A stretch of 29,303 bases of DNA, taken from contig JAUVNZ010000002.1 of NCBI GenBank assembly GCA_030599435.1, positions 1 through 29,303 of the forward strand, in the 5' to 3' direction. The notes below the pieces were generated by a model. The model made no database searches and was not told the origin of the DNA. It saw nothing but the letters and a program-made list of their open reading frames with translations. Below are positions 14,173-28,532 of this stretch, piece after piece; position 1 is the stretch's first letter, and each line of letters begins with the position of its first letter. A program made the position numbers and the translations under genes. The stretch is from Gammaproteobacteria bacterium. GTDB lineage: Bacteria; Pseudomonadota; Gammaproteobacteria; SZUA-152.

Positions 14173-14287
14173 GGGTGGCAACCCGCACCAGCCACACCCC
14201 GCACACGAATCCACTGCTGCCGCTGCTCCCTTCCAGGCCTGACGGGGTTCACAATTTATCGTTGCAAGGGGACCCGCACGGGTCGCC
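14173..14287 (-). ncRNA. ffs: Signal recognition particle RNA (4.5S RNA)
   Basis: The minus strand carries the small bacterial SRP RNA that binds Ffh and targets membrane proteins. The diagnostic apical part GUCAGGCCUGGAAGGGAGCAGC (complement of 14222-14243) contains the GGAA tetraloop region and the symmetric and asymmetric internal loops recognised by the Ffh M domain. The ends pair well: 5' GGCGACCCG (14287 down to 14279) with 3' CGGGUUGCC (14185 down to 14177). This gives a mature length of about 111-115 nt, close to E. coli 4.5S. It lies 133 bases upstream of dnaX in the same orientation, the classical neighbourhood. Exact processed ends are not certain by a few bases. No clear terminator or promoter was identified around it. 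Confidence 0.95.
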
Positions 14288-20527: not shown

Positions 20528-20744
20528 GCGCTGTTTTCCTAATTACCTGAATTTGTAGAAATTGGTTTATGTAGTTTGCCACATAATTAGTTGTGGGGTT
20601 ACGCATGTAACAGACGCAGGAGGCGGCAAAAAATTCCCTGAATATAGGAAACTTATTCATAATAAATAAGGAGGGATTACAAGATACGTCCATGTATAGC
20701 ACTTATCCCGAGGGAGGCCACTCTCGCACATCCTTGTACCCTCA

Positions 20745-20839
20745 GGGCATAAATGCTCCGCGGCACCTGCACATAACCCACAGGGATGTGGGGAATGCAA
20801 AAGGATTGTCTGGAACAATCCTTGCCCATGTGCATTGGG
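20745..20839 (+). repeat. Hairpin array of element A (variable part)
   Basis: A dense set of inverted repeats directly upstream of the conserved module. GGGCAT/ATGCTC (20745-20750 with 20753-20758, one G-U). A 7-bp closing stem TGCACAT/ATGTGCA (20768-20774 with 20828-20834) encloses two perfect hairpins: CCCACA/TGTGGG with loop GGGA (20777-20792) and AAGGATTGT/ACAATCCTT with loop CTGGA (20801-20823). Such a closed multi-branch layout suggests a folded RNA or a structured single-stranded DNA. No protein-coding gene is convincing here. Element B has the same plan with unrelated stem sequences. The strand given is that of the shared module's terminator reading; true transcription is unproven. 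Confidence 0.6.
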
Positions 20840-20844
20840 ATCCT

Positions 20845-21030
20845 TCACCCTCTGCTCGGGTTCGAAGACCTACTGAATCCGCATAAAACAAAAGGCCCCA
20901 AATTGGGGCCTTTTGTTTTATTGGCGGTGCATGCAGTCTGCTGCGAGACAGTCTCCAGAAATTCCCTGATAAATAGGAAAATACAGGGAAATCACTCATT
21001 TTTTCAGACCAAATCGGGCATCGTGTTGCA
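20845..21030 (+). repeat. Conserved module of direct repeat, copy A
   Basis: This stretch aligns along its whole length with 28352-28532 in the same orientation. Shared blocks in order: CTCGGGTTC (tRNA T-arm-like box), a GGCC-cored terminator hairpin, ATTGGCGGTG, GCAGTCTGC, CAGTCTCCA, then the inverted repeat TTCCCTG (20962-20968) and CAGGGAA (20984-20990) with AGGAAAATA between, and finally a CAAAT/GGCAT/TGTTGC block. Two further partial TTCCCTG/CAGGGAA motifs lie outside the module, near 20635 and at 21090-21107. The pair of copies brackets the nitroreductase-transporter-thioesterase segment. No transposase or integrase gene is present; this may be a non-autonomous element or a recombination scar. 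Confidence 0.8.
20885..20919. terminator. Bidirectional terminator inside repeat copy A
   Basis: A perfect 17-bp inverted repeat, AAAACAAAAGGCCCCAA (20885-20901) and its complement (20903-20919), centred on one base. It has a GC core and A/T-rich flanks, so it can act as an intrinsic terminator on either strand. It would insulate the hydroxylase promoter region from the accessory segment. Confidence 0.8.
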
Positions 21031-21140
21031 AGTATTCTGCAGAAATTGAACGGTTTTTTCGTGGTTTAGGCTCGTTACCAAAAAAGATAACAGGGAATTA
21101 TCAGGGAATCACGTTAGGCAACAGTTAATGATGTCTGCCT

Positions 21141-27741: not shown

Positions 27742-28188
27742 GTGAAAGAAACGCTTAAACCAGGAATCGAATACACTCACACCTTTCGCATAGGGAGTAA
27801 TAAGTGCGTTCCGGCACTTTATCCTGAAGCGGAAGAATTCGTTGCCATGCCTGAGGTCTTTGCCACGGGTTTTATGGTTGGCTTTCTCGAATGGGTCTGC
27901 ATCAAGGCACTTAATCCACATATTGACTGGCCGCATGAGCAAAGTCTCGGCACCCACATCAACATTAATCACATTGCAGCCACACCCCCCGGCTTTGAGG
28001 TTACCGCAAAGGTACGCCTGGTTGAGGTTGATGGTCGTAAACTCCGCTTTGAAGTTGAGGCGCACGATGGCGTGGATCTAATCTCAAAAGGCGAACATGA
28101 GAGAGTTGTTATCGAAAGGGTGCGATTCGATAAAAAGATGAGCAATAAAAAAACTACCAGCGGTACAGATATAAAAAGTGACCGTTAA
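27742..28188 (+). CDS. Hotdog-fold acyl-CoA thioesterase, FlK-like
   Basis: A 148-residue protein of the fluoroacetyl-CoA thioesterase (FlK)-like branch of the hotdog superfamily. The fingerprints are MPEVFATGFMVGFLEWVC (helix with a Thr/Glu pair), GTHININHIAATPPG (the His before AATPPG is the candidate catalytic His) and VRLVEVDGRKLRFEVEAHDG (the hotdog strand pair). Such enzymes cleave short acyl-CoA esters or act as housekeeping deacylases. The natural substrate here is unknown and fluoroacetate is not implied. The GTG start lies three bases after the LivF stop without its own good ribosome site, so translation is coupled to the importer operon. This location suggests removal of CoA from an intermediate made from the imported compound. 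The tail (MSNKKTTSGTDIKSDR) is hydrophilic. Confidence 0.85.
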   Translation: MKETLKPGIEYTHTFRIGSNKCVPALYPEAEEFVAMPEVFATGFMVGFLEWVCIKALNPHIDWPHEQSLGTHININHIAATPPGFEVTAKVRLVEVDGRKLRFEVEAHDGVDLISKGEHERVVIERVRFDKKMSNKKTTSGTDIKSDR

Positions 28189-28210
28189 CAGGAGAGAGGT
28201 GATTGACTCG

Positions 28211-28330
28211 GGCCATTCATGGCCTTCACCCTTCGGGCAGCCTACGGCTGTCCCAAATTGATCCAGTCAATTTGGTCGACCGTTTCGACTGCATCGAAAC
28301 GGGACGCACTTCAGTGCGCCCGCAGGGTGA
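28211..28330 (+). repeat. Hairpin array of element B (variable part)
   Basis: A series of perfect hairpins starting 22 bases after the thioesterase stop: GGCCAT/ATGGCC (28211-28224); then a 7-bp closing stem TCACCCT/AGGGTGA (28226-28232 with 28324-28330). It encloses CAGCC/GGCTG with outer GGG/CCC (28235-28254), CCAAATTGA/TCAATTTGG with loop TCCAG (28253-28275), CCGTTTCGA/TCGAAACGG with loop CTGCA (28280-28302) and CGCACT/AGTGCG (28305-28318). Two of the inner stems have 9 bp and a 5-nt loop, as one in element A does. The first and second inner hairpins share two bases (28253-28254), so they compete. A reading frame through this region is a by-product of the structure. Confidence 0.65.
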
Positions 28331-28351
28331 GTGCCAGGGAAGGCGCTCATC

Positions 28352-28532
28352 AACCCTCTTCTCGGGTTCAAATCCCTACTGATAATAAAAAAGGCCACCC
28401 ATTTGGGCAGCCTTTTATATTATTGGCGGTGGTTGCAGTCTGCAGCGAACCAGTCTCCAAAAGATTCCCTGAAAAACAGGAAAATACAGGGAAATCCTCC
28501 ATTTCCCATTCCAAATTTGGCATTATGTTGCT
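28352..28532 (+). repeat. Conserved module of direct repeat, copy B
   Basis: Same-orientation partner of 20845-21030. It shares AACCCTCTTCTCGGGTTC, the terminator, ATTGGCGGTG, GCAGTCTGC, CAGTCTCCA, TTCCCTG (28465-28471) and CAGGGAA (28487-28493) at identical spacing, and a CAAAT/GGCAT/TGTTGC end. The box GGGTTCAAATCCC resembles a tRNA T-arm, but no other tRNA arm can be folded around it. Copy B is cleaner in the T-arm box and copy A in the terminator stem. Confidence 0.8.
28389..28416 (+). terminator. Terminator inside repeat copy B
   Basis: AAAAGGC (28389-28395 approximately) pairs with GCCTTTT (28410-28416), with an inner CCC/GGG pair and a CA/CA internal loop, followed by TATATT. It would end transcription of the importer-thioesterase operon. 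Confidence 0.65.

Follow-up and report, generated by a model that had tools for sequence, protein, structure and literature searches.

The unit of a REP or REPIN is a single palindrome. The RtT RNA family (Rfam RF00391) represents repeats of the Escherichia coli tyrT operon. In PMC2965389, rtT-like elements of enterobacteria are counted among the BIMEs and are said to be possibly active in transcription. PMC4986893 already places RtT elements beside tRNA-Asn and tRNA-Lys genes, so the wider link to tRNA genes described below is not wholly new. Here we compare these systems with a hairpin cluster (cluster B, 28211-28330) in a 29,303-nt stretch of DNA, hereafter the window. It is highly probable that two RtT-type repeats stand head to head, as an inverted pair, at positions 28189-28363; the pair is most likely an orphan relic that would work at most as a palindrome in a 3' untranslated region (UTR) (Table 1).

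Cluster B has a minimum free energy (MFE) of -63.3 kcal/mol, against a mean of -36.2 (sd 3.64) for shuffled sequences (z -7.45), and none of 200 shuffles was as stable; the cluster pointed out in a first-pass annotation of this DNA is thus real. As described there, 28226-28232 (TCACCCT) pairs with 28324-28330 (AGGGTGA) around four hairpins. Of the two inner stems given as 9 bp with a 5-nt loop, one has this form; the other has 10 bp and a 3-nt loop at the MFE, and opening its last T-G pair gives the described 9 bp and 5-nt loop. A wider stretch, 28205-28420, which includes a terminator-like hairpin, reaches -93.4 (z -7.58). Because the whole stretch is an imperfect inverted repeat (28203-28238 against 28318-28353, 36 nt, 72% complementary), the fold extends outward to about 28205-28353. 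A simple terminator scan did not call the cluster itself, and found the T-run of the 28389-28416 hairpin on the minus strand only.

At gathering scores the window matched SRP RNA alone in Rfam, away from the cluster (14183-14278, minus strand, 67 bits), and ARAGORN found no tRNA in the window. The Rfam RtT model (gathering score 45 bits) gave no match to 28180-28400 (221 nt) even at E <= 10. At that threshold the stretch had weak matches to other families, headed by RsmW (18.2 bits; gathering score 52). The low-scoring Rfam matches of the analysis as a whole, to sX4, RsmW, sX7, leaders and others, lie far below gathering and were dropped.

A covariance model, R1, was made from 25 copies in other genomes (alignment A2; RF00391 matches above or below gathering) with the window sequence excluded; its E-values are rough, from a short calibration. 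Over the whole window, R1 matches 28189-28320 on the minus strand at full length (model 1-138, 37.8 bits, E 6.6e-8) and 28260-28346 on the plus strand (model positions 26-115, 28.0 bits, E 1.4e-5); the third and last match up to E 10 is a chance one of 6.0 bits. Since the two matches lie on opposite strands, overlapping at 28260-28320, cluster B consists of two units head to head. Matches on both strands at E <= 5e-4 were found at none of 83 loci of one order (some loci overlapping), which argues that the plus match is more than the mirror of a palindromic family; measured against those 83 loci, the inverted pair is known from the window locus alone.

Aligned from GTCGACC to the tail, each on its own strand 5' to 3', the two copies score 30.5, where the best of 1,000 shuffles reached 18.5. 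Read from the letters of this alignment, hairpin hp4 is CCAAATTGA-CTGGA-TCAATTTGG in one copy and CCGTTTCGA-CTGCA-TCGAAACGG in the other: four of nine pairs differ, all compensated, with nine of nine kept in both copies and a constant loop, CTG(G/C)A. In hp3, three of five pairs differ between the copies, again all compensated. The closing stem, first taken for a designed outer stem, is formed by the two inverted copies of the conserved CCCGnAGGGTGA motif, CCCGAAGGGTGA of one unit being paired with the corresponding stretch of the other. Both tails are Ser-like and lack GCCA, the minus copy having AATCACCTCTCTCC in place of AATCCCTCCCTCTCC and the plus copy CAACCCTCTTCTC. The minus-strand match ends at 28189, the first base past the TAA stop of gene 27742-28188. 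The hairpin at 28351-28376 is either hp5-like on the minus strand or the tail of the plus copy.

Table 1. Features of the inverted pair and its surroundings in the window.
Feature	Position	Strand	Description and basis
RtT-type repeat, minus-strand copy	28189..28281	-	Decayed tRNA-Ser-like tail (28189-28206), hp1-hp4, up to the shared palindrome; R1 and alignment to tRNA-Ser units
RtT-type repeat, plus-strand copy	28274..28363	+	Inverted relative to the first copy, Ser-like tail CAACCCTCTTCTC at its end; R1 and copy-copy alignment
Palindrome GGTCGACC, joint of the inverted pair	28274..28281		Family consensus GGTTCGAC
Closed cluster	28226..28330		hp3 and hp4 (minus copy), hp4' and hp3' (plus copy) inside the 28226-28232/28324-28330 stem; fold
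tRNA T-arm-like hairpin CAACCC-TCTTCTC-GGGTTCAAATCCC	28351..28376		Fold; comparison with units
Terminator-like hairpin between repeats and module M	28389..28416	-	12 pairs, T-run tail TTATTATCAG on the minus strand
Module M, TTGGCGGTGGTTGCAGTCTGCAGCGAACCAGTCTCC then TTCCCTG/CAGGGAA repeats	28422 to about 28560	+	Alignment of 11 copies; occupies the place of the tRNA at other RtT loci
Element A	20690..20890		Not RtT by model; core resembles another dispersed hairpin repeat; beside the second M (20920 onward)

The start pattern of the unit (cluster B begins GATTGACTCGGGC...), searched in 369 genomes of one class, gave 14 places in 13 genomes (loci L026-L039; L and G numbers are our labels for loci and genomes). 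Of the 14, 11 contain a tRNA-Ser according to ARAGORN (L026 overlaps L039, and L036 and L013 are one site); at these loci the unit lies directly behind the tRNA, and its antisense start is a copy or near copy of the tRNA's last 18 nt. A permissive search of six loci with RF00391 recovered units in four, on the tRNA strand, over model positions 1-130 and below gathering: L034 (40.5 bits, E 5.4e-5), L026 (35.1 bits, E 0.0012), L029 (32.7, E 0.0046, and 31.5, E 0.0091) and L033 (26.3, E 0.18). L028 and L031 gave no RtT match. The first-pass annotation had held that no known RNA family fits and had named a match to an Rfam family as the thing that would tell against this; the window copy's silence with the RtT model speaks for novelty, but its relatives match RF00391 at full length, and the claim is not supported.

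Under stricter filters, RF00391 matched 66 of the 369 genomes at E <= 1e-3 and 24 of the 369 above its cut-off; among 14 control genomes, E. coli was the sole match. We examined 34 RF00391 matches (30 best-match loci plus the units of L034, L026, L029 and L033), taking the neighbouring tRNA as partner where a locus had several. A same-strand tRNA-Gln, -Tyr or -Ser stands 5' of 31 of them; the exceptions are L058, with its tRNA on the 3' side, and L049 and L067, with none and both near a contig start. R1 matched 21 of 23 genomes of G363's order at E <= 1e-3. The fetched loci of that order gave 99 rows, or 92 once seven repeats from overlapping loci were dropped: 54 lie behind a tRNA of their own strand that is no more than 700 nt away (Gln 19, Ser 16, Arg 9, Glu 6, Tyr 4), six are too near a contig end, one lies beside module M by the strict motif and 31 are without a tRNA. 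All of these 31 score below 70 bits, and for 23 of them the 5' flank spans 250-699 nt, a farther tRNA being possible. An orphan RtT-type repeat is therefore not rare; one beside M is. Units also form tandem arrays behind tRNAs. A terminator-like hairpin lies between tRNA and unit in 11 of 31 spacers (counted without a shuffled control), where it would exclude the unit from the tRNA transcript, barring read-through. RtT-type matches at L123 (G391:C83, three copies in 2.6 kb), L126, L128, L095 and L142 carry tails such as ATCCTTCCGGGCGCGCCA, which resemble the end of another tRNA; no tRNA lies within 700 nt or the flank at hand.

RNAalifold on the 25 copies of A2 gave 30 pairs, 19 of them changed on both sides. 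In this alignment 92.2% of cells are paired (76.3% shuffled, 33.1-48.3% slid) and the covariation score is 0.442 against 0.160. The second alignment, of 22 further copies (21 distinct, L040 also being in A2) fitted to the model, leans to structure; it gave 88.7% paired (71.1% shuffled, 32.5-51.9% slid) and a score of 0.448 against 0.149. The closing helix with the tail is paired at 92.0% in A2 and 75.0% in the second set. In both sets related sequences are counted as if independent. Covariation thus supports the RtT-type structure across the family, and the statement of the first-pass annotation that the stems are constant in architecture and not in sequence holds across genomes.

The 3' end of a unit follows the tRNA in front of it. 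In 32 pairs, made up of high-scoring copies with an adjoining tRNA-Gln, -Ser or -Tyr, the last 18 nt of the unit are identical to the last 18 nt of the tRNA in 24, and at least 16 nt agree in 28; four match poorly (L042, L058, L061 and L066). The mean match is 16.6 to the unit's own tRNA, 15.3 to tRNAs from other loci that share its amino acid and 11.4 where the amino acid differs, and none of 10,000 trials with tRNAs shuffled within amino acid reached the observed sum. Among the 54 tRNA-linked matches of the one order, the best 18-nt match was at least 16 in 39 (Gln 15/19, Ser 10/16, Arg 8/9, Tyr 3/4, Glu 3/6), with the frame free to slide near the unit's end and no shuffled control. The opposite stem strand follows as well: in 31 pairs (L055, which contains Ns, left out), the 5' strand forms a duplex of mean energy -18.7 with its own tail, -16.6 with tails of the same amino acid and -14.9 with others, and none of 2,000 shuffles over all units paired as well. 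Eight units pair weakly, at -4.9 to -12.2 (Ser L033, L046, L054, L056, L058, L059 and L062; Gln L053), so the closing helix is not universal. Our literature search, which most subscription papers fell outside, found no report of RtT copying Ser or Gln tRNA tails.

In place of a tRNA, the window pair has a dispersed motif beside it, TTGGCGGTGG, which belongs to module M. The first-pass annotation was right that A and B have a 3' module in common: a long hairpin and TTGGCGGTG..TGCAGTCTGC come after each, and the second window copy of M lies at 20920-21110, beside element A. The reverse complement of M ends CCACCGCCA, and this end, CCGCCA, resembles the 3' end of tRNA-Ser. The module occurs in three Proteobacteria MAGs (L002, Rudaea; L003, K189A clade, two copies; L005), and a pattern allowing two mismatches hit eight places in seven of the 369 genomes of G001's class, four of which, in four genomes (L006, L013, L014 and L015), are true modules by eye and the other four chance matches. 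L001, L004, L012 and L016-L018 appeared by eye to be chance matches in coding sequence and were dropped from the module counts. The single match of a viral scan with the module lies within a phage ORF and is due to chance; plasmid BLAST found nothing with B and, with A, one record, a 39-bp match annotated argF. In 11 aligned copies, conservation starts sharply at TTGGCGG, and most copies have dissimilar sequence on the left of it, with the Rudaea copies L010 and L011 agreeing there. One Rudaea contig, JARLJU010000017.1, carries three M copies (1-3 mismatches to the pattern) within about 28 kb, and L002 has runs of CAGGGAA.

Of 16 M copies compared, four directly adjoin an RtT unit (window B, L005, L158, which is L013, and L159), and each time the unit stands behind M's CCGCCA as behind that of a tRNA. 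Some 55 nt to the left of TGGCGG are common to L013, L014 and L160; L013 is filled with an RtT unit, and L014 and L160 are empty. In L013 the unit and a terminator sit between the common flank and TGGCGGTGG, with TGGCGG on both sides; the extra sequence relative to L014, about 200 bp, runs TGGCGGAGAGGGAGGGATT, hairpins, GTCGAACC...GGGTTCGA, terminator, and cluster B starts with the same words as this insert. The order at L005 is M, one RtT unit, SRP RNA, and at L026 (G314) tRNA-Ser, two RtT units, SRP RNA, as if M had replaced the tRNA before the SRP RNA. As to M as a possible integrase attachment site, no intact integrase stands beside the copies examined, and two partial ones lie at 0.6-1.1 kb.

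Element A occupies the same place beside M as B does, and was first taken for the same thing with the same plan. R1 gives it at best 6.8 bits (E 0.051; 1 kb searched, filters off), and its core, 20769-20834, is similar to a different dispersed hairpin repeat (GGAAATGCAAAGGATTGTCnGGAACAATCCTTGCC and its variants), which occurs at eight places in 5 of the 369 genomes, at none of them with a tRNA in the locus. As the family model misses A and its core resembles a different repeat, the shared plan of A and B is not borne out by homology. The minus strand of 20650-20930, which takes in element A and a terminator-like hairpin, folds with z -5.93. The core repeat shares a 20-bp word with an array unit of L037/L046 that has the frame of RtT and not its hairpins. 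In that array (G025:C1, about 1340-1500) the unit has the same TGGCGGAGAGGGAGG frame and terminator with a different payload, as if payloads had been swapped within one frame.

An RtT unit, as the family shows, usually stands behind a tRNA gene on the same strand and forms a closing helix around about five hairpins, and its 3' strand often repeats the final ~18 nt of the tRNA. Given their tRNA-Ser-like tails, the window pair most likely descended from units of a tRNA-Ser gene. It is now an orphan, with no tRNA, adjoining M, its minus tail abutting the stop codon of gene 27742-28188. As the minus match ends just past this TAA, plus-strand transcripts from upstream would carry the composite hairpin as their 3' UTR, with the 28389-28416 hairpin coming after it. 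Such a very stable 3'-UTR hairpin may slow 3'-5' decay and transcription in the manner of BIMEs and REPs. Judging by its position, the pair most likely works, if at all, as a palindrome of that sort, with no RtT RNA released.

Several other explanations bear on the same observations. Chance palindromes, or a plain large terminator, might be suspected because folding is common in GC-rich intergenic sequence; with z -7.45, none of 200 shuffles as stable and a homologous family showing covariation, the chance of this is almost negligible. A new class of structured RNA or single-stranded DNA unrelated to known families would fit a window copy that has no Rfam match at gathering and weak matches to other families at E <= 10, but it is highly improbable in view of the R1 matches to the window, unless their E-values are wrong by several orders, and of the Rfam RtT matches to the copies behind R1. 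That the minus-strand copy still acts as an RtT-like RNA or a riboregulator, transcribed from M, seems improbable too, with at best a slim chance: both window copies keep their structure with compensatory changes, and PMC4986893 reports RtT RNAs on Northern blots in Actinobacillus pleuropneumoniae, but there is no tRNA in the window, the tail has decayed and a second, inverted copy favours the composite fold over the family fold. A strong terminator-like hairpin also stands on the minus strand between M and the repeats; its T-run would stop transcription from M before it reached them, which favours the relic reading. Hairpins of this kind also lie in 11 of 31 tRNA-RtT spacers (no shuffled control).

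RtT units might instead be mobile cassettes, set 3' of CCGCCA (the end of a tRNA, sometimes of M) by site-specific recombination or copying and carrying the tail along, with the window pair an insertion beside M. We hold this to be unlikely, though a serious candidate. The ~55-nt flank common to filled L013 and empty L014 and L160, with TGGCGG on both sides, points that way, but these loci come from different genomes and do not make a strict filled/empty pair. Pointing the same way are the sharp start of M conservation at TTGGCGG, the units that adjoin M in 4 of 16 cases, the minus copy's having the same relative orientation, and the duplication of the flank itself in L033 and L027. The tandem arrays behind tRNAs would also suit cassettes, but tandem duplication, slippage and gene conversion yield arrays with copied tails as well. 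In G267:C141 a partial match to the tyrosine recombinase family PF00589 (38.3 bits) lies ~1.1 kb away from the RtT units, but in the six genomes tested for PF00589 no intact recombinase gene stands beside units, and the matches fall on contigs other than those of the M and RtT copies examined, bar this one and a second partial match in G003:C19 (29.2 bits), ~0.6 kb from an M without RtT. A bolder version, which we think quite doubtful, is that RtT units are tiny non-coding mobile cassettes homing on tRNA 3' ends with a copied acceptor/T-stem strand, many using their own 5' strand to rebuild an acceptor-plus-T-stem minihelix that ends in GCCA or ACCA, lining up in arrays behind genes for tRNA-Gln, -Ser, -Tyr, -Arg and -Glu and able to jump to tRNA-mimic sites such as M, the window pair being one inverted jump.

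With the window pair read as an inverted, orphan RtT relic, an unexplained palindrome is placed, and the range of RtT widens to 66 of 369 genomes of one class and to several tRNA species. The RtT tail varies in sequence with the preceding tRNA, and in many units the opposite stem strand changes to match. The old question about the tyrT repeats, whether they are an RNA product or a tRNA-homing repeat, becomes testable by strain comparison.

Among known systems, RtT RNA (RF00391) is the closest. Relatives of the window copy share its ordered motifs GGnUGAGAA, GGUUCGAC, CCCGnAGGGYGAG and CGAGUnAAUCC together with the tRNA tail, and are matched over model positions 1-130; the window copies carry the family fold and motifs by R1. 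They differ in forming an inverted pair that lacks a tRNA, an intact tail and a reportable Rfam score, and copies in this class stand behind tRNA-Gln, -Ser, -Arg and -Glu besides tRNA-Tyr. Intrinsic terminators behind tRNA genes resemble the terminator-like hairpin between tRNA or M and the unit, which the window has in common with 11 of 31 spacers, whereas the hairpin cluster is a separate part with no terminator call in the scan. Like a BIME or REPIN, the window pair is extragenic, lies 3' of a gene and consists of two inverted palindromic units, but its type of unit is ~130 nt long with five hairpins.
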